From: Eubacterium sp.
Lineage (GTDB): Bacteria > Bacillota > Clostridia > Lachnospirales > Lachnospiraceae
Direction of reading: 5' to 3'
Length of the DNA stretch: 58,614 bases
NCBI GenBank assembly: GCA_017480495.1
Contig: JAFVAQ010000001.1
Location: 1 to 58,614, forward strand
Each line of letters opens with the position of its first letter. Position 1 is the stretch's first letter. Of this stretch, positions 4,312 through 45,868 are shown piece by piece. Both the position numbers and the translations under genes were made by a program. The notes below the pieces were generated by a model. The model was given only the letters and a program-made list of their open reading frames with translations. It did no database searches and was not told where the DNA came from.

Positions 4312-4345
4312 AAAAGTCTCCACAGATCTTCCGATCTGTAGAGAC
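4312..4345 (-). terminator. T-box terminator hairpin before leuA
   Basis: GTCTCTACAGATC, loop GGAA, GATCTGTGGAGAC (4345-4316) and then TTTT form a rho-independent terminator directly after the T-box sequence. It is the conditional terminator that uncharged tRNA would prevent from forming. One G-U pair interrupts the otherwise perfect 13-bp stem. Confidence 0.9.
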
Positions 4346-4645
4346 GTAAAATACGCGGTACCACTCTACTTCATAAGCATACGCTTATGCACTCATCAGT
4401 ACGGAGCTTTCTTAGAAGCTCTTATACCTTCCCTCTGTAACGGTAGGGATCCGGATTAGACTACTATCGGAACTATTCTCTTATATTGAGCATTTCCTTT
4501 TTCACCCAATCTGCTCAGGGGCGAGTTCGGTGTGACTATCCTCTGCCTTGCACCATCCGGCAGTTCTCTATGATATCCATGGTTATCAGGAATCATCCTC
4601 ACTTACTATTCCCCATCTACGCATTTAGATGGTTATTTAATTGAA
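4312..4645 (-). promoter_or_regulatory. T-box riboswitch, leucine specifier (CUC)
   Basis: The ~330-base leader contains the diagnostic T-box sequence AGAGTGGTACCGCG (4367-4354), whose UGGU would pair with the ACCA end of an uncharged tRNA. The specifier loop at the 3' side of stem I reads GAA-CUC-GCC, with CUC at 4525-4523, a leucine codon. An AGTA segment near 4605 fits the opposing S-turn strand. The terminator at 4345-4312 completes the switch. Leucine specificity agrees with the downstream leuA. The logic follows the known mechanism; the fold was read by eye. Confidence 0.92.
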
Positions 4646-38118: not shown

Positions 38119-38880
38119 TTATAAATATCCTAAATAAGTTCTCTGAACTACTGAATGATACACAAGATCAATCATGGTATTGAAGTCGAAAACAGGAAGA
38201 CCTGTTACCGACTGAATAGCCTTTGCATAAGGTGGCAGGTCACTACACTCCAGCAGGATGGCACCTATATCAGGATTTTCATCAACTATCTTTTTCGCAA
38301 GATTAGTGAGATCCTCCGTCAGCTTCTTATTATCAAAACTGTTGCTTCCGTACCTTATTCCTGCAAAACTATCCATATGTCCAACATCCTGAACTAGAAT
38401 TCTACTCTTATCAGTTCCAACCTTATTTAAGATGACCTCATCCAGATTGTCTCCACTAGCCGCGAAAACCAAAATCTTTTTCTTATATGATATTCCCGTC
38501 TTGATTAGTGGAAGCTGGCATAAGCTGGACATAAATACCGGCACATCAACAGCCTCTCTTACATCCTCTTGAAAATGTGCGAAATATCCACAAGCACCGA
38601 TGATAGCTCTTACGCCTTGCTCCTCCAGATACTTAGCAGCTTCTATTATCTGATTTTTTATAGCATCACTACCATTAAATAGTTCCTCTATTTCAAAGAA
38701 CACATCCTTATATAAAACAGGAAATGGGTATGTAGTTGCATTTGCTACATTTCCCGGAAGCTTAGGATATACAAGATGTACCGCTATGATACCGATAGCA
38801 AAGCCCGCTGTCGCATGCGGAGTCACAGTATGAATACCCAGAAGCTCCTCCCTGGTTTCTATCGTACTTTTCCAATTCAT
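38119..38880 (-). CDS. Aspartate/glutamate racemase superfamily protein
   Basis: 253 aa from the ATG at 38880, with GAGG 11 bases upstream (a TTG at 38910 is in frame but weaker). Both family cysteines are present: GACGYF in the first half and LLECSDLPPY in the second, the two acid/base residues of cofactor-independent amino-acid racemases of the Asp/Glu/hydantoin type. Last gene of the unit, 38 bases after metI. It probably interconverts stereoisomers of the amino acid handled by this operon, or acts on a decarboxylation/hydantoin substrate; exact substrate unknown. Confidence 0.8.
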   Translation of the reverse strand: MNWKSTIETREELLGIHTVTPHATAGFAIGIIAVHLVYPKLPGNVANATTYPFPVLYKDVFFEIEELFNGSDAIKNQIIEAAKYLEEQGVRAIIGACGYFAHFQEDVREAVDVPVFMSSLCQLPLIKTGISYKKKILVFAASGDNLDEVILNKVGTDKSRILVQDVGHMDSFAGIRYGSNSFDNKKLTEDLTNLAKKIVDENPDIGAILLECSDLPPYAKAIQSVTGLPVFDFNTMIDLVYHSVVQRTYLGYL

Positions 38881-38918
38881 TTTTTCTGAAACCTCATAAT
38901 TTAAGTTCAACCGGAAAA

Positions 38919-39578
38919 CTAATTTATCCTTTTATCCAATCTATTTACTATATGGATTCCAACCTCCTGAAATACCTGAACAATAACTACGAGAACAGCA
39001 ACCGTAATAAGCATAACGTCTGTTTTATAACGATAGTATCCATAGTTAACTGCAATGGCTCCCAGTCCACCACCACCAACGAATCCAGCCATGGCTGAGT
39101 ATCCCAGGATGGTCGCAAATGCAATCACCCCACCCATCAGTAGAGATGGTCTCGCCTCAGCAAGAAGTACCTTCCAGATAATCTGCCATGAGGAAGAACC
39201 CATTGCTTTTGCGGCTTCTATAACACCTGAGTCAACCTCCTTCAGAGATGACTCTACGAGTCTTGCTACGAATGGGGCAGCTGCAACAACTAAAGGAACG
39301 ACTGTAGCAGTCGATCCTATGGTTGTTCCAACTATAAATCTCGTAAATGGGAGGATAGCCACTAGGAGAATCAGAAATGGTACTGATCTGATAACATTTG
39401 TAATAAATCCCACCACAAGATTGATAACTCTGTTTGGTTTGATTCCGGTAGGGCTGGTAATATTTAGTATTACTCCCATTGGAACACCTATAAGATATGC
39501 GAAGGCAGTCGATAGAATAACCATGTAGAAGGTCTCGCCCACTCCGCCTTTTATCAGATCAAGTATCTGAGTATTCAT
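38919..39578 (-). CDS. metI: Methionine-type ABC transporter permease
   Basis: 219 aa with five hydrophobic helices and the EAA-loop SGVIEAAKAMGSSSWQIIWKV that contacts the ATPase. The sequence is of the MetI family (D/L-methionine importers). It begins at the base immediately after the metN stop. With MetN and MetQ upstream it forms a full MetNIQ importer, whose genes are interleaved with an aminotransferase and an opine dehydrogenase homologue. True substrate may be methionine or a modified amino acid. Confidence 0.92.
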   Translation of the reverse strand: MNTQILDLIKGGVGETFYMVILSTAFAYLIGVPMGVILNITSPTGIKPNRVINLVVGFITNVIRSVPFLILLVAILPFTRFIVGTTIGSTATVVPLVVAAAPFVARLVESSLKEVDSGVIEAAKAMGSSSWQIIWKVLLAEARPSLLMGGVIAFATILGYSAMAGFVGGGGLGAIAVNYGYYRYKTDVMLITVAVLVVIVQVFQEVGIHIVNRLDKRIN

Positions 39579-40595
39579 TTACGCTACCTCCTTATTCTTT
39601 CCATCTTCGCCTGAGATTTCCTCATACTTGATGTTATTTTTTTCGAGATACTTCTTTATTATCTCAACATATTTTTCTTCTGGGCGTTCAATAAGAATCT
39701 GGCCATAGGCGATACCACCGATGTCCTCTGTATTTGCGCCAAGTATATTCAGCTTCACCTGCGTCTCAAGAATCAGATTCGCAAGAACTGGTTCAAAGGA
39801 AGATAGTCCATCGTAAACTATTCTTATAGACTTTCTTTCATTTTTTATATCATTTTTATTTCCGCCAGATAGAACCAGCTTCCTGCTAGTTTCAGACTGT
39901 GGATTGAGAAATATATCTCTTACTGCACCAAGCTCTTCTACCACACCATGATTCATGATTGCTACTCTGTCGCAGATCTGCTCCACAACCTTCATCTCAT
40001 GAGTGATTACAACTATAGTTACTCCAAGTTCCTTATTTATCTTTTTTATGAGTGAAAGGACACCACTTGTTGTAAGGGGATCAAGAGCACTAGTCGCCTC
40101 GTCGCAGAGAAGAACCTCCGGGTTTGTTGCAAGCGCTCTTGCTATAGCAACTCTCTGCTTCTGTCCGCCTGATAGCTGTGATGGATAGGATTTTTCCTTA
40201 TCTGCAAGATCTACTATTTTAAGGAGTTCACGGGCTCTTTCCTTCGCCTCCTTTTTATTTACGCCTTCAAGCTCCAGAGGATAGCATACATTTGCAAGGA
40301 CTGTTCTTTGTTCAAGAAGATTGAACTGCTGGAAGATCATACCTATTTTCCTACGATAGCCTCTAAGCTCCTTACTTGAAGCCTTTACCAGATCATTTCC
40401 GTCAAAATATACTGAGCCTTCAGTTGGTACCTCAAGAAGATTCATACAACGAACAAGGGTTGATTTACCTGCACCTGAGAAACCGATTATTCCAAATATC
40501 TCACCTTTCTCGATTTCAAAGCTGACATTATCAACCGCTGTAACTGTATTTCCTTTTACTTTGAATGTCTTTGTAACATTTTCCAGTTTTATCAT
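39579..40595 (-). CDS. metN: Methionine-type ABC transporter ATPase
   Basis: 338 aa from the ATG at 40595 (an in-frame TTG at 40622 would overlap the aminotransferase stop). Walker A is GFSGAGKSTL, signature LSGGQKQRVAIARAL, Walker B LLCDEATSALDP, and H-loop VVITHEMK. The C-terminal ~90 residues form the NIL/ACT-like regulatory domain that binds methionine and inhibits uptake in MetN proteins. Start is 23 bases after the aminotransferase stop and the next gene is metI. Confidence 0.94.
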   Translation of the reverse strand: MIKLENVTKTFKVKGNTVTAVDNVSFEIEKGEIFGIIGFSGAGKSTLVRCMNLLEVPTEGSVYFDGNDLVKASSKELRGYRRKIGMIFQQFNLLEQRTVLANVCYPLELEGVNKKEAKERARELLKIVDLADKEKSYPSQLSGGQKQRVAIARALATNPEVLLCDEATSALDPLTTSGVLSLIKKINKELGVTIVVITHEMKVVEQICDRVAIMNHGVVEELGAVRDIFLNPQSETSRKLVLSGGNKNDIKNERKSIRIVYDGLSSFEPVLANLILETQVKLNILGANTEDIGGIAYGQILIERPEEKYVEIIKKYLEKNNIKYEEISGEDGKNKEVA

Positions 40596-40618
40596 TTTTC
40601 TATTCCTTTTATGTGAGG

Positions 40619-41803
40619 TCAACTCTTGCCCCAGTTTATACGATTCTCTCTCATATCCCTAAGCCGAGATAATCTGTCTATAGCCTCATTAAGAGTAGCA
40701 TCACTTTTAGCAAAATGAAATCTCACATAGTTCTGTATATTTTCTTTAAAAAAGCTGGAGCCAGGAACAGGAGCGACGCCGATATGCTCTGCCATCCACT
40801 CAGAGAACCTAACATCATCAGTCACTCCAAATTCACTGACATCCACCATTACATAGTAGGCCCCCTGCGGCTCTACAAATTTAAGACCTATATCTCGGAG
40901 ACCCCCAAGAAATAGGTCTTTCATGTGAGTATAATGATTACGAAGGTCACTATAATACTCGTCGCCAAACTCAAGTCCAACCACTGCCGCTTCCATAAGA
41001 GGCGCTGCCGCTCCCACAGTGAGAAAATCATGCACCTTTTTCACTCGGTCAATGACCTCCTCATTTGCGATAACATATCCCAGACGCCATCCAGTAATCG
41101 AATATGTCTTCGACAGTGAATTACAGATAATTGTTCTATCCTTCATTCCAGGAAGAGTTGACATATATGTATGTTTATATGGCTCATAAATAATATGTTC
41201 ATAAACCTCATCTGTGATAACGAACGTATCATAGTGCTTCGCAAGGTCAGCTATCTTAGACAGTTCATCATAGGAGAATACTTTTCCAGATGGATTCGAT
41301 GGATTACATACTATTATTGCCTTAACATCCTGTTTAAATGCATTTTCCAGCTCAACCGGATCAAATGTGAATTCAGGTGGATTTAGCGGAACATATATCG
41401 GTTCCGCTCCAGACAGTATTGCATCTGCTCCATAGTTCTCATAAAAAGGAGAGAAAACTATTACCTTATCACCAGGATTAGTCACAGCCATCATTGAAGC
41501 CATCATTGCTTCTGTGCTTCCGCACGTAACAACTATTTCCTTATCAGGCTCTATTACCTGTCCGGAAAATCTCTCGTGCTTTCTAGCAAGGGCCTCTCTG
41601 AAGTTCTGTGCTCCCCAGGTAAGGGCATATTGATGCGGCCCTTCCGAAGCAACCTTAGCGAGTCTATCTGTTATCTCTCGGGGCGGATCAAAGTCCGGAA
41701 ACCCTTGAGATAAATTGATAGCACCATACTGATTTGAAATCCTAGTCATTCGCCTTATCACTGAATCCGTGAAGGTCGAGCTGCGTAAACTTAGTTTAGG
41801 CAT
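40619..41803 (-). CDS. PLP-dependent aminotransferase, class I/II
   Basis: 394 aa, fold type I. It has GAINLSQGFPDFDPP at the N-terminus, CNPSNPSGKVF, TDEVYEH, and the PLP-lysine motif NSLSKTYSITGWRLGY (about residues 232-247). It belongs to the aspartate/methionine/kynurenine aminotransferase group that includes YbdL-like enzymes acting on methionine. It overlaps the opine dehydrogenase gene by 8 bases, so the two are co-translated. In this operon it may supply or consume the 2-oxo acid partner of the opine-forming reaction. Substrate inferred only from context. Confidence 0.85.
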   Translation of the reverse strand: MPKLSLRSSTFTDSVIRRMTRISNQYGAINLSQGFPDFDPPREITDRLAKVASEGPHQYALTWGAQNFREALARKHERFSGQVIEPDKEIVVTCGSTEAMMASMMAVTNPGDKVIVFSPFYENYGADAILSGAEPIYVPLNPPEFTFDPVELENAFKQDVKAIIVCNPSNPSGKVFSYDELSKIADLAKHYDTFVITDEVYEHIIYEPYKHTYMSTLPGMKDRTIICNSLSKTYSITGWRLGYVIANEEVIDRVKKVHDFLTVGAAAPLMEAAVVGLEFGDEYYSDLRNHYTHMKDLFLGGLRDIGLKFVEPQGAYYVMVDVSEFGVTDDVRFSEWMAEHIGVAPVPGSSFFKENIQNYVRFHFAKSDATLNEAIDRLSRLRDMRENRINWGKS

Positions 41804-43028
41804 TTTCTTTATAAATTCCCTTATTTAAATATTCCAGGAGGGACTCTTTATCGAGGTGTCCGATTCCGAGATCATCCAGTGTGATTCCTGTTTTGTAGAA
41901 ATCCTTACCGGTCATTACTGATCCGAGGGTTATCATAGAATCAATAACTGGCGTCTCGACTCCGAACTTTTTGCCTAGCTCGTGATACAAGTGACATCCT
42001 ACCGGTACATCCTCTGTCACGTAGCGGTCTTGTATACTAAATGGTCCTGTTCTATATCCTGTTTCCCACTGCTCGTCGAAAGGAACGATACAGTCATCAC
42101 CCATATATTCCGGACCAAGAATACTTGTTCTAGACAGGAAGTTTTTCTTAGGATACTTTGCGATACCTACACCGATTGCCTCAGCCAGCGCAACCTCCTC
42201 AAGGAAGAATGCGTACTGAACTTCTGCTATAGATTCGCAATATGCATGGCTATAAATTGAATAGGTGTACTTATCATTTCCACCATATATTCTGCCCCAG
42301 TTCTCCATAACTCCAACACCGAGAATAGTACCCGGACAATGAAGCACAGGATTTACATTACTAAAACCAATATCAAGAACGGTATTTCCACCGACTGGGC
42401 CATCGCCCTCTGTAATGGAATCGAAGCATCCAAGGTACTTAGTACTGTTCAGGAATACATCCTGATCAGTACTTGGAAGAGCAGCACCACGGAGAGTTTT
42501 AGCTCTATATACAAGCCACATATCAGATGTCTGCACTCCACCTTCCTTCTCAACTCGTGTTCCATATGGAGCACTGGACCAACCACCTATAATAACCTTC
42601 TTTGTATTTCCGGTCTCACGAAGCTTTTTTCTAAGCTTCAGAGAACCATAATTATCAGGTATTATATGAATTATCTGGCCATCCTCGAGAACAGGGACCA
42701 ACTTGTCGAAAAATATGTCATGTGCTACAGATGGAATAGCAACAATAATAAGTTTCGCATCCTTCACAGCTTCAGAAATGTTTGAAGTGATTAGATTAAT
42801 AAATGCTTTCCCTGTCCTCTTGAAGCCATATTGGTTTTTCTGGATACCTCCAAGAGTAATGCCTGTTTTTGCAACGTTTTTAAGGTTCTGATCAAAAAAC
42901 TCTGGTAATTCAAATAACCTTACATCTTTATTTCCGCCAAGTACACAGTCAGCTGCACATGTTTTTCCAACAGCACCGCCTCCAAGTACAGCGATTGGTG
43001 AATCCTTTAAAACCTCATCCTCGAACAA
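41796..43028 (-). CDS. NAD/NADP octopine/nopaline (opine) dehydrogenase family protein
   Basis: 410 aa. The N-terminal Rossmann domain has PIAVLGGGAVGKTCAADC; the C-terminal helical domain has the family's NVNPVLHCPGTILG motif with the catalytic-type His. Opine dehydrogenases join an amino acid's amine to a 2-oxo acid by reductive condensation, or reverse it; octopine, nopaline and staphylopine (CntM) dehydrogenases are members. The start is TTG at 43028, supported by AGGAGG 8 bases upstream. It lies 36 bases after metQ and overlaps the aminotransferase. Family call firm; product unknown. Confidence 0.85.
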   Translation of the reverse strand: MFEDEVLKDSPIAVLGGGAVGKTCAADCVLGGNKDVRLFELPEFFDQNLKNVAKTGITLGGIQKNQYGFKRTGKAFINLITSNISEAVKDAKLIIVAIPSVAHDIFFDKLVPVLEDGQIIHIIPDNYGSLKLRKKLRETGNTKKVIIGGWSSAPYGTRVEKEGGVQTSDMWLVYRAKTLRGAALPSTDQDVFLNSTKYLGCFDSITEGDGPVGGNTVLDIGFSNVNPVLHCPGTILGVGVMENWGRIYGGNDKYTYSIYSHAYCESIAEVQYAFFLEEVALAEAIGVGIAKYPKKNFLSRTSILGPEYMGDDCIVPFDEQWETGYRTGPFSIQDRYVTEDVPVGCHLYHELGKKFGVETPVIDSMITLGSVMTGKDFYKTGITLDDLGIGHLDKESLLEYLNKGIYKENA

Positions 43029-43064
43029 CTTTTTGTCCTCCTAAATCTTAAAGTCTTATACTTC

Positions 43065-43964
43065 TTAGAATACTGGTACTACTGCACCTGAATATGTATC
43101 GTTAATATAGTTCTTAACTTCTTCTGTAAGGATAGCATTCTTAAGTGCCTGTGACTTAGCTGAATCCTCTTCACCTTCTCTAACGCATACATAGTTCGTA
43201 TATGTCTCAGCGGCAAGTGAATCAGCAGCCTCAACTGCAATTGCATCACCAAGTCCAGCTTCGATTGCATAGTTACCATTTACAACCGCGAAGTCAACAT
43301 CCTGAATTGACTTTGGAACCTGAGCTGCCTCGAGTTCCTGGATCTCAACGTTGTGCTCATTCTCTTCGATATCAAGAACTGTTGCCTGAATTCCAACACC
43401 TTCCTTAAGCTTGATAACGCCCTGTGCTTCAAGAAGAAGAAGTGCTCTTGCTTCATTTGTTGAATCATTTGGTACTGCTATCTTAGCTCCATCAGCTATA
43501 TTAGAAAGGTCTGAGGACTTACCTGCATATACACCCATAGGCTCGAAGTGAACACCAGCAAGTGTTACGATGTGAGTTCCATTTTCCTTGTTGAAATCAT
43601 CAAGGTAAGGCTTATGCTGGAAGTAGTTTGCATCCAGATCACCATCTTCAAGTGCTGTGTTTGGAAGTACATAATCGTTGTACTCTACAACCTCAAGTGT
43701 CCAACCATCCTCTGCCAGATTATCCTTGATCTGCTCAAGTATCTCAGCGTGTGGAGTAACACATGCTCCAACCTTGATAACCTTGTCTTCTGAATCCTCA
43801 GCATCAGTGCTTGTCTCTTCAGTTTTCTCTTCTGTCTGTGCGGCTGCCTGAGTTGTTGCCTCAGTTTGTGCTGCCTCTGCATCACCATTTGATGAACCAC
43901 ATCCTGTGATAAGTGATGCTGTAAGTGATAATGCTAATACTAAACCTATAAATTTCTTTCTCAT
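43065..43964 (-). CDS. metQ: MetQ/NlpA substrate-binding lipoprotein
   Basis: 299 aa. The signal peptide ends in a lipobox with Cys22 (LITGCGSS), followed by a Glu/Thr/Ala-rich linker and the NlpA fold with VKVGACVTPHAEILEQIK, DLDANYFQHKPYLD and AVPNDSTNEARALLLLE. It binds the substrate for MetN-MetI. GGAGG precedes the ATG. The 123 bases upstream, to the methyltransferase stop, hold no terminator; an extended -10 (TGCTAATAT, about 44015-44007) could give an internal promoter. Confidence 0.93.
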   Translation of the reverse strand: MRKKFIGLVLALSLTASLITGCGSSNGDAEAAQTEATTQAAAQTEEKTEETSTDAEDSEDKVIKVGACVTPHAEILEQIKDNLAEDGWTLEVVEYNDYVLPNTALEDGDLDANYFQHKPYLDDFNKENGTHIVTLAGVHFEPMGVYAGKSSDLSNIADGAKIAVPNDSTNEARALLLLEAQGVIKLKEGVGIQATVLDIEENEHNVEIQELEAAQVPKSIQDVDFAVVNGNYAIEAGLGDAIAVEAADSLAAETYTNYVCVREGEEDSAKSQALKNAILTEEVKNYINDTYSGAVVPVF

Positions 43965-44087
43965 ATTTTTTTCCTCCTAGTGTTTGTTTGTTTCTTACAA
44001 GCATGTATATTAGCACCAGTTTTTCGCTTTGTATAATTCCTTAATTTTATGGTTCGTTATAAGTTCTTCCTATAACACAAGCTTCCA

Positions 44088-44999
44088 CTACACCGCTATT
44101 CTCTCAGCCTCAAACCTTTTATTTACGTACGTTGCAGACACTAGACTTACATTTTCAAAGGCCTTCAGCCCATCACTTCTACCCTCAAAATATGTCTCCT
44201 GAATTTGCTTCGGATCCATCTGGACATCCAGTTTAAATCCTAGCGAGCAGAGCACACATCTCATCTCATTTGAATCAAAACCACCGCACATAACTTCGCC
44301 CAAGGACTCAGTTATTTCCTCAAGTCTTTTAACCCTATCAGGAAAATCCCCTGAGCTTAGTGGATAGTCGAATACCACCTTACTTCCCACCTGAGAAAGC
44401 TCTGCTATCTGCCTAAGTGTCTCCGCAAAAACCTCTAGAGTGAGATAATAGGAAACGCCCATAATACTGAAATAAGTCTTCTTCTCCGGATCAAAGCCCG
44501 CCTCAAGTAGCTTATCCACTAATCTATCCTTACTGAAATCTACAGGAACATAATGAACATTAGGCCTACGTATCCATTCCAGTTCACTTATACGTTCTAG
44601 CTTATAACGTTGGGTATCCGGATGATCCACCTCGAACACTTCTATATCATCATTATCATTTCTAAAAGAAAATGTATCTGCCCCTGCACCACAGATAACA
44701 TATTGAATCTTTCCATTCTCCTTTGCAAAGTCAGCCAAGCCATTTTCATTAAAATGCATTCTAGAAAGAGGAATAGGAAGAAAATAATCTGCTATCAGTT
44801 TCTCTGCATTTTCTTTTCCTAGACTATCCGAATCGATTATCCCTTCCCTTATCATTTCAAGCATTTCTTCATATTCTTCCTTGCCCATAAAATCAAAGGC
44901 TAGGTAATCATCATATATTTTTTCCCTGGAATAATACGAGTGCCATGCCCTTGCAAATGCACATAACTTAGCTGTTATACTTTCTCTTTCGTCAACCAT
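44088..44999 (-). CDS. SAM-dependent methyltransferase, LCM/TIGR00027 family
   Basis: 303 aa. The class I motif I is VICGAGADTFSFR (about residues 99-111), then EVFEVDHPDTQRYK and VPVDFSKD, as in the leucine carboxyl methyltransferase-like family (TIGR00027) that methylates small molecules. Several members modify metabolites or leucine carboxyl groups. GGAGG lies 5 bases before the ATG. It is the first structural gene behind the Cys-codon leader and its terminator, so its expression should respond to cysteinyl-tRNA supply. Substrate not determinable. Confidence 0.83.
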   Translation of the reverse strand: MVDERESITAKLCAFARAWHSYYSREKIYDDYLAFDFMGKEEYEEMLEMIREGIIDSDSLGKENAEKLIADYFLPIPLSRMHFNENGLADFAKENGKIQYVICGAGADTFSFRNDNDDIEVFEVDHPDTQRYKLERISELEWIRRPNVHYVPVDFSKDRLVDKLLEAGFDPEKKTYFSIMGVSYYLTLEVFAETLRQIAELSQVGSKVVFDYPLSSGDFPDRVKRLEEITESLGEVMCGGFDSNEMRCVLCSLGFKLDVQMDPKQIQETYFEGRSDGLKAFENVSLVSATYVNKRFEAERIAV

Positions 45000-45067
45000 G
45001 ATAACCTCCGTCTTGTTAGTTGATTTATCTTTTCTTATTAGTTAGTTTTTGTCTTCTGTCATTAGGT

Positions 45068-45102
45068 AAAAAAAGCCCGAGTGCTTTGATTAGCACTCGG
45101 GC
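45068..45102 (-). terminator. Attenuator terminator after the Cys leader peptide
   Basis: GCCCGAGTGCT (45102-45092), a 6-base loop, AGCACTCGGGC (45085-45075) and seven T form a strong rho-independent terminator between the leader peptide and the methyltransferase gene. Its 5' arm TGCCCGAGT can alternatively pair with ACTCGGGCA (45198-45190) inside the leader peptide, a perfect 9-bp antiterminator. Confidence 0.92.
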
Positions 45103-45141
45103 AAATGACTTCTTAATATACTTTAATTCGTAATTCAGTGT

Positions 45142-45255
45142 TTATAGAGGCGCGTTAAAATCGCACGTTAAAACACCAGCCATAGAATATGCCCGAGTTT
45201 TTAACATGCAACAGCAACAAAGAATATTATTAAGATTTGCAGATAACTTAGTCAT
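45142..45255 (-). CDS. 37-aa leader peptide with a Cys4 run
   Basis: A short gene starting at ATG 45255 after GAAGGAAAAGAAG and ending at TAA 45142-45144. Residues 13-16 are four consecutive cysteines, codons TGT TGC TGT TGC (45219-45208), and there is a fifth Cys near the end. Its coding sequence carries the antiterminator segment (45198-45190) 9 bases after the Cys run. The position downstream of a promoter and upstream of a terminator is that of a classical attenuation leader. Stalling at Cys codons, when cysteinyl-tRNA is scarce, should free the antiterminator and let transcription continue. Confidence 0.8.
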   Translation of the reverse strand: MTKLSANLNNILCCCCMLKTRAYSMAGVLTCDFNAPL

Positions 45256-45292
45256 TCTTCTTTTCCTTCTATAAATCTTTTAGACGAGGGTT

Positions 45293-45321
45293 ATATTATC
45301 ATTATTTACCTACCAAGTCAA
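45293..45321 (-). promoter_or_regulatory. Promoter of the Cys-attenuated operon, with operator-like palindrome
   Basis: TTGACT (45321-45316), 17 bases, TAATAT (45298-45293) preceded by TGA, an extended -10. Transcription would begin near 45286, about 30 bases before the leader ATG. The palindrome AATAGG-N5-CCTATT (45336-45320) overlaps the -35 and could bind a repressor or activator. Confidence 0.7.
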
Positions 45322-45361
45322 TAGGTTTTTCCTATTATCAGTTCAAGGATATTAGAATATA

Positions 45362-45868
45362 CTAGTTAAATATCTTAAAGGAACCAAGTAGTGGAAGTGG
45401 TTTACATTCGCCATTAATAGCATTTATGAGTCCCATTATCAGACAAACTGTCAGGAATATAGAGCCCGCCAATATAGCCAGCCAACCAAGTATAGGAATA
45501 AATACAAGTATAACTGACACTACTCCAAATATACATCCGGATATTATAAGAACAAATACATTATTCAAATGAAATCTAAAAAATGGATCTGATCTATCCG
45601 CCGAAAGAAGCGCAATTACAAGTCCTATCCAGGTCAGGTAACAAACAATCGCCGCGGTCTTAGGATCCATAGAAAAACTGCCAGACTGATTACCCTGATT
45701 TTGCTGAAAGCCCTGAGGTTGTTGATAATTCTGATTATACTGAGTTCCTTGAGCCTGCTGATAACCCTGTCCCTGAGGCTGCTGATAACCTGCATAGAGG
45801 GGGAATCCACAGAATGGACAATTAGTTCCCTCAGTTGTTACTTCGTTTCCACAATTATTACATCTCAT
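45362..45868 (-). CDS. Zinc-ribbon DUF4870-like membrane protein
   Basis: 168 aa. The N-terminus is a zinc ribbon (CNNCGNEV...CPFCGFPL), followed by a Gln/Gly/Tyr-rich linker of about 45 residues (YQQPQGQGYQQ-like repeats), then three hydrophobic helices with DRSDPFFRFHLNN as in DUF4870/Tic20-like small membrane proteins. AAAGGAG lies about 9 bases before the ATG. It follows the larger membrane protein gene by 14 bases, so they share a transcript. Function unknown. Confidence 0.75.
   Translation of the reverse strand: MRCNNCGNEVTTEGTNCPFCGFPLYAGYQQPQGQGYQQAQGTQYNQNYQQPQGFQQNQGNQSGSFSMDPKTAAIVCYLTWIGLVIALLSADRSDPFFRFHLNNVFVLIISGCIFGVVSVILVFIPILGWLAILAGSIFLTVCLIMGLINAINGECKPLPLLGSFKIFN

Follow-up and report, generated by a model that had tools for sequence, protein, structure and literature searches.

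A leader region on the minus strand of the window (the whole 58,614-nucleotide stretch of Eubacterium sp. contig JAFVAQ010000001.1 that was analysed) is very likely a transcription attenuator of the trp/his type, mediated by the ribosome and responsive to cysteine, which would sense Cys-tRNA and stand as a second layer under a repressor. The reading is built on a leader ORF and its Cys codons, a terminator, a covarying antiterminator, an operator-like site and a sulfur gene context, as these appear from sequence and comparison. The original prediction had proposed attenuation at this site and is supported, with both the Cys codons and the leader/terminator pairing conserved. Promoter, leader gene and terminator occupy the space from the end of a DUF4870 gene (45362) to the start of a seven-gene operon (44999), in the following arrangement:

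45308..45326, minus strand: operator-like palindrome ACCTATTGACTTGGTAGGT over the -35 box, exact here
45293..45321, minus strand: predicted promoter TTGACT-17-TAATAT, matching the consensus at 9 of 12 positions, with TG before the -10 box
45264..45268, minus strand: AAGGA, Shine-Dalgarno-like, 8 nt 5' of the leader ATG (read from the sequence)
45142..45255, minus strand: leader peptide gene, 37 codons, ATG at 45255, stop codon ending at 45142, peptide MTKLSANLNNILCCCCMLKTRAYSMAGVLTCDFNAPL
45208..45219, minus strand: sensor, the four tandem Cys codons TGT TGC TGT TGC (read from the sequence)
45199..45209, minus strand: segment 1, GCATGTTAAAA, 5' arm of the protector hairpin, beginning in the last Cys codon (from folds)
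45190..45198, minus strand: segment 2, ACTCGGGCA, 5' strand of the antiterminator within the coding sequence (from pairing analyses)
45179..45183, minus strand: ATGGC, second block of the antiterminator, which can pair with GTCAT at 45109-45105 (one G-U); helix 2, with 91.4% of cells paired
45163..45173, minus strand: 3' arm of the protector hairpin, TTTTAACGTGC (from folds)
45095..45103, minus strand: segment 3, TGCCCGAGT, common to the antiterminator and the terminator 5' arm (from pairing analyses)
45068..45102, minus strand: intrinsic terminator with an 11-bp stem, a 6-nt loop and T7

The 37-codon leader with TGT TGC TGT TGC had been called correctly to the base (45219-45208), as had ACTCGGGCA at 45198-45190, nine bases past the Cys run, and this short Cys-rich ORF is preceded by a putative ribosome-binding site. 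Four consecutive TGY codons occur 16 times in the 1.89-Mb assembly versus three times in the control, and two of the 16 look leader-like on inspection. The host had been taken for a Clostridium, which is wrong: the opine dehydrogenase of the operon is 95-100% identical to Lachnospiraceae records, several of which are rumen-labelled. Searches of this leader against Rfam at E values up to 10 return 11 weak matches (best E 0.012), all under the gathering score, with no T-box (RF00230) match at the leader site; at the gathering score no family is found on this leader or, a tRNA excepted, in 16 leader-bearing sources. Ten leader peptides searched against NCBIfam at E 10 give zero matches.

The terminator stem GCCCGAGTGCT/AGCACTCGGGC occupies 45102-45075 and its T7 runs to 45068. 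It is the one terminator-like site in 44990-45400, where 0.1 is expected, and an intrinsic terminator likewise lies between leader and first gene in relatives. The exact 9-nt complement between leader and terminator 5' arm on which the original prediction turned is confirmed as the longest perfect complement of the two, and one as long arises in 22 of 20,000 mononucleotide shuffles of the ORF. Segment 3 belongs to both helices, and formation of the antiterminator is predicted to exclude the terminator.

Conservation of this pairing in relatives, which the original prediction had named as a check, is found, with compensatory changes, by alignment, terminator swap and RNAalifold. Alignment A4 (MAFFT) holds 38 leaders. 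Excluded from it are the near-copies L017 and L018, L020 and L023b as members of other families, G002 for its unclear terminator, and G357b, which was recognised as a leader later; the row for G225 is without the terminator 3' arm and has both antiterminator strands. In A4 the antiterminator comprises ten pairs between CTCCCGGGCA in the leader and TGCCCGGGAG in the terminator arm, and ATGGC with GCCAT contributes five more. Of its cells (15 pairs, 38 leaders), 93.6% hold standard pairs, both sides have changed at 10 of the 15 pairs (20 cells), and pairing falls to 25-45% when the partner is slid by 1-3 columns. None of 500 shuffles, which do not remove relatedness, reaches any of five covariation measures, and RNAalifold, with the alignment as its only input, predicts the ten-pair antiterminator helix and nothing besides. 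When terminators are swapped among 30 distinct leaders, Watson-Crick pairs number 9.27 of 12 with the own terminator versus 8.70 with a swapped one (P 5e-5), or 9.77 versus 9.42 with G-U counted (P 0.003). Duplex energies for 40 leaders are -22.1 kcal/mol (own) versus -19.5 kcal/mol (swapped; 0 of 20,000 permutations), and the window leader ranks its own terminator 10th of 40 as a partner. The comparison as a whole points to selection on the antiterminator pairing.

Two search models, both of which score the Cys codons, were used to chart the distribution of the leader: R1 covers 60 nt without the terminator arm, and R2 is longer, derives from 38 leaders and contains that arm. At E 0.1, R1 has matches in 37 of the 397 genomes sampled from the family; in the class it has them in 19 of 391, where three loci beyond the family look real on inspection (11 loci were inspected, 8 of them not leaders, and seven further places lie outside the inspection). 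The R1 family list has 42 places besides the genome's own two; G285:C191, G263, G220, the first of G283, G111, G187:C52, G218 and G296 (as L088) were judged non-leaders, and G132 and the second of G283 fall outside the inspection. At E 0.01, R2 has matches in 51 of the 397 family genomes (among those of good quality, 39 of 319), a count that is not independent of the model because R2 was trained partly on the same 397 genomes; one of the matched genomes, G126, looks false, and one genome has four matches. Of 398 genomes across the phylum, six match R2. Three of these lie outside the class and one looks false; the remaining two are the window's own genome and a class member that R1 had already matched. 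A second set of 38 places is reduced to 36 plausible leaders by the removal of G957 and G126, judged false on inspection.

The Cys codons had also been proposed for comparison, and they are conserved: 39 of the 40 leaders in the first set, found with a model that itself scores these codons, have two to four in tandem, and G219 has a single one. TGT and TGC interchange at these positions. Among the 36 plausible members of the second set, 21 carry tandem Cys codons; the other 15 have at least one Cys codon at the site on inspection, often as Met-Cys-Met-Cys, and therefore weaken a strict poly-Cys reading. The TGGC block is recognisable in 38 leaders and must be conserved at the level of RNA, since five of the 38 hold it in a different frame with its nucleotides kept. 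Leader stop codons lie 9 to 90 nt past the Cys run, and in G520 the stop comes three codons after it. As judged from these sequences, the leader codons matter and the remaining peptide does not.

Alternating Met/Cys leaders (MCMCRM and alike) are seen at L185, L186, L191, L198 and L210, where on inspection they precede an ABC binding protein, GST-like and other genes; they possibly sense both sulfur amino acids. A single-Cys variant, MLNLFESLLRQNFRCGRM, is present in G066 (L200) and G004 (L213) and nearly identical in G372 (L209), near base 300 after orienting. Its N-terminus varies less than that of other leaders. By inspection, the genes behind it are those of an O-acetylhomoserine sulfhydrylase and a cysteine synthase in G066 and G372, and in G004 a nitrogenase-like gene.

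How might such a leader act? The first layer of control would lie at the -35 box, where the palindrome probably serves as an operator for an Rrf2/CymR-type repressor. Transcripts that are started would then be governed by translation of the leader. With Cys-tRNA plentiful, the ribosome would pass the Cys codons and run on to the stop codon. Segment 1 and 45173-45163 would then form the protector hairpin and occupy segment 2, and the terminator would form ahead of the first structural gene. With Cys-tRNA scarce, the ribosome would stall at the Cys codons and cover segment 1, leaving segment 2 and ATGGC to pair with the terminator 5' arm, and polymerase would read into the operon.

Folding lends this scheme uneven support. 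The RNA of 45030-45270 folds 4.6 SD under its shuffles (z -4.62), and its minimum-energy fold contains the further hairpin GCATGTTAAAA x TTTTAACGTGC that the original prediction had put forward, which in the window leader would fit the role of a protector (1:2) stem. A tandem altered copy, TTTTAACGCGC, had been pointed out as well; it exists in the window and, on inspection of the alignment, is not kept in distant relatives, and it was set aside as a relevant element. Across the family 64.1% of protector cells are paired, which is equalled in 171 of 500 shuffles; the pair-type measures are reached by 15-16 of 500, and slid versions score lower.

Folds with the ribosome masked, also proposed at the outset, were run for the window with the transcript halted before the terminator 3' arm, in nine ribosome footprint settings. 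A ribosome placed on any of Cys codons 1-3 gives an expected 12-15 antiterminator pairs in eight of the nine; in the ninth (12 upstream, 16 downstream) a ribosome on Cys 3 leaves 7.6. A ribosome on Cys 4 gives anything from 0 to 14 pairs, depending on the footprint, and one at the stop codon gives 0-1. The unfinished transcript folded without a ribosome has 12.5 antiterminator pairs, so that termination on an untranslated leader does not follow from the fold alone. The L022 leader shows the window leader's behaviour in six of nine settings, in one of them weakly; the switch is not seen in masked folds of the mccB leader from the window's own genome, and over 40 leaders (G225 omitted) the first Cys codon and the stop differ clearly in 20. 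In these folds the window leader switches as predicted, and with results this mixed across leaders, mask folding was discarded as a general proof of the switch and kept as support for the window alone. At equilibrium, every state of the full-length window leader favours the terminator (0.99), so the switch must be kinetic, and equilibrium folding is a poor proxy for folding during transcription. For this reason, and because of the family-wide result for the protector hairpin, the attenuator reading is held as very likely and its choreography less so.

Promoter-like sites of the quality of the one at 45293..45321 number six in the stretch, versus 1.5 expected. The consensus of the palindrome that overlaps it, CCTATTGACATAGTAGG, occurs with at most three mismatches before 34 of 42 leaders, and its reversed pattern before 0 of 42. 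The second set played no part in defining the consensus and gives 23 of 38 versus 0. G167, G234, G755, G520 and G534 are without the palindrome and keep the leader/terminator pairing. The window's assembly has four sites at up to three mismatches: that of the window, that of mccB and two others, at neither of which is a Cys leader seen in the inspected sequence. The third precedes an O-acetylhomoserine sulfhydrylase-like gene, named by inspection, and the fourth a gene that we take to be gamma-glutamylcysteine synthetase-like. One Rrf2-family gene was found in the assembly, which is 65.6% complete; it is oriented divergently to the O-acetylhomoserine sulfhydrylase-like gene, at a distance of ~240 bp from the third site. 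The palindrome, a conserved operator-like site before sulfur genes with a putative kinship to the CymR motif, is probably an Rrf2/CymR-type operator, and we infer that an Rrf2 protein binds it. For Clostridium, the available text of PMC3828012 discusses cysteine genes under CymR-type control.

The genes controlled by the window leader would be these:

44088..44999, minus strand: SAM-dependent methyltransferase, LCM/TIGR00027 (Pfam/NCBIfam)
43065..43964, minus strand: MetQ/NlpA substrate-binding lipoprotein (Pfam/NCBIfam)
41796..43028, minus strand: opine dehydrogenase, Octopine_DH (Pfam/NCBIfam)
40619..41803, minus strand: class I/II aminotransferase (Pfam/NCBIfam)
39579..40622, minus strand: MetN-like ABC ATPase with NIL domain (under the MetN cut-off)
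38919..39578, minus strand: MetI-like ABC permease (204.5 bits, cut-off 212)
38119..38910, minus strand: Asp/Glu racemase family protein (Pfam/NCBIfam)

The first of them has its own GGAGG, 3' of the terminator. In L020 and L022 a Cys leader stands before mccB, and mccB- and mccA-like genes lie directly 5' of the methyltransferase gene; the window's genome has mccB-mccA on another contig with a Cys4 leader of its own, MTKSFATKMNNCCCCILSSRTCNMAGVLVCRCYRPL. This synteny and the second leader tie the window operon to the methionine-to-cysteine and sulfur amino-acid uptake set. The operon's link to sulfur is made up of MetNIQ and the synteny with mccBA alone, and the operon probably serves the supply or salvage of sulfur amino acids. 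Its span, 38119-44999, brings MetNIQ and a methyltransferase together with an aminotransferase, a racemase-like protein and opine dehydrogenase; the last two, without the rest of the operon, are seen side by side out to Streptococcus and Enterococcus.

The leader is not fixed to the opine dehydrogenase operon. Among 36 fetched loci with a related opine dehydrogenase, R1 matches five, namely the near-copies L017 and L018 and the homologues L022, L023 and L039; a scan for Cys-rich ORFs adds two mccB leaders that differ in sequence, a Cys5 leader in L020 (Lachnospiraceae bacterium LC2019, apparently an isolate) and a Cys6 leader in L023, and no such Cys leader is seen at the other loci, several of which are short. 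For the methyltransferase gene a Cys leader lies upstream in five of six loci, and the sixth, L019, starts 1.9 kb before the gene and so includes too little upstream sequence for the comparison. The Cys5 and Cys6 leaders (L020:2479-2580 and L023:15200-15391) each have their own antiterminator pairing and each pair best with their own terminator among 40; by sequence they appear to be independent or far diverged attenuators for the same gene, mccB.

Elsewhere, the first downstream ORF of at least 150 aa was scanned for 28 of 34 first-set leaders, leaving out L111, L116, L118, L121 and L124 (426-428-aa genes) and L090. Genes that would make or import the sensed amino acid are found in 26 of the 28, these looking like sulfur amino-acid enzymes or parts of amino-acid ABC transporters whose substrates are putative. 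The 28 comprise O-acetylhomoserine/O-acetylserine sulfhydrylase-like genes (11, with L103 under the TIGR01326 cut-off), cystathionine gamma-lyase/synthase-like genes (four), a cysteine synthase, MetQ/NlpA domain proteins (five), family-3 amino-acid binding proteins (three), ABC permeases (two, with L138 weak and under the Pfam cut-off), a sulfopropanediol dehydratase and a glutathione S-transferase-like gene. The sulfopropanediol dehydratase (HpsG) follows a leader of the family at L129, which suggests that sulfonate breakdown is there under cysteine control.

Could the leader work in some other way? Translational coupling or Rho, as proposed for actinobacterial cys leaders, would make the hairpin incidental, and Cys leaders of Mycobacterium are indeed described without intrinsic terminators in the available part of PMC1262725. 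Here, however, a strong intrinsic terminator with a U-run is present, its 5' arm covaries with the leader, and the GGAGG of the first gene lies downstream of it, so we consider this reading very unlikely. The short ORF might instead encode a functional Cys-rich peptide, metal-binding or a RiPP precursor, followed by an ordinary terminator. The core C-C-R-M-x-x-S-R-A-Y-x-M-A-G does look conserved in many relatives, but it tracks the RNA pairing, the frame shifts in five of 38 leaders with the nucleotides kept, the distance from Cys run to stop ranges from 9 to 90 nt and the ten peptides have no NCBIfam match at E 10; a peptide with a function of its own is most unlikely.

Direct binding of tRNA or a metabolite (T-box, S-box or a new riboswitch), with no sensing by the ribosome, deserves mention because Clostridium perfringens senses cysteine by Cys T-boxes, according to the part of PMC2940859 available, and because the window antiterminator forms in the ribosome-free fold. 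It is improbable in the extreme, given Cys codons in frame behind a start codon, an RNAalifold consensus that consists of the switch pairing alone, and the lack of any Rfam family at gathering score here or, bar a tRNA, in the 16 leader sources. Nor is there much probability that the Rrf2-type operator does all the control and the leader is a relic. The palindrome accompanies the leaders (34 of 42) and two of its four assembly sites have no Cys leader in the inspected sequence, yet the antiterminator covariation points to selection and five leaders without a palindrome, G167, G234, G755, G520 and G534, have kept the pairing; we rate such a relic extremely unlikely. Ribosome-mediated attenuation remains the preferred reading.

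In trp/his-type attenuators a leader ORF contains codons of the relevant amino acid and is followed by protector, antiterminator and terminator pairings. The present leader resembles them in its leader ORF codons and in its antiterminator, terminator and putative protector pairings, and differs in having Cys codons, an antiterminator strand split into two blocks within the coding region and a -35 box overlapped by an operator-like site. Polycysteine leaders of actinobacterial cys operons, reportedly the subject of work by Canestrari in 2020, share the runs of Cys codons in short ORFs. Those leaders precede cysteine genes and, in the available text, differ in having no conserved intrinsic terminator and in placing the Cys codons near the stop codon (PMC1262725). 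Closer in design is the uORFC-8-2 motif before cysS in Rhodobacterales, where tandem Cys codons in a leader ORF are followed by an intrinsic terminator and stalling is thought to give read-through (PMC8632094). It belongs to another phylum and, in the description available, is found only before cysS, with no covariation reported for its rare third stem (PMC8632094); it is by this description that it is set apart here. The Cys T-boxes of Clostridium have the same physiological task, act by transcription termination and also stand before mccBA (the ubiG operon), but they bind tRNA directly and a leader peptide is absent, as far as the available text of PMC2940859 goes.

A literature search, with subscription journals thinly covered, found no Cys leader or attenuator in Clostridia, and cysteine or Lachnospiraceae go unmentioned in the available main text of two structured-RNA surveys (PMC11109978, PMC6429828). 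We call the leaders a new family, as defined by their sequences, but one of a known type of regulation, ribosome-mediated attenuation. The sulfur controls listed for firmicutes in the accessible part of PMC2940859 are S-boxes, T-boxes, LysR-type regulators and CymR, with the remark that other mechanisms may exist in clostridia that have no T-box before cysK. The Cys-leader family, matched in 51 of 397 sampled family genomes, is a concrete candidate for such a mechanism; it predicts a cysteine regulon, points to a probable operator and lends itself to tests at the level of single codons. The family further hints that transporters and enzymes of unclear substrate, such as those of the window's opine dehydrogenase operon, have a role in cysteine starvation.

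A broader reading is offered tentatively, as one that may well prove too bold. In it the leaders would form a large undescribed attenuator family of Clostridia and neighbouring classes, duplicated and moved between sulfur operons and serving as a second tier under an Rrf2/CymR-type repressor, with the repressor reading the cysteine precursor pool and the leader reading tRNA charging. In some members the Cys-Cys sensor would have given way to alternating Met and Cys codons, by which a single leader would integrate the two sulfur amino acids, a part of the reading that derives from the 15 second-set leaders without tandem Cys codons, often with Met-Cys-Met-Cys.

T-boxes occur in the same genome. 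The T-box model has four matches in the assembly, one over the cut-off; a T-box at 4337-4628 of the window precedes a 2-isopropylmalate synthase-like (leuA-like) gene, and the other three matches precede thrS-, trpE- and pheS-like genes, as judged from their translations.
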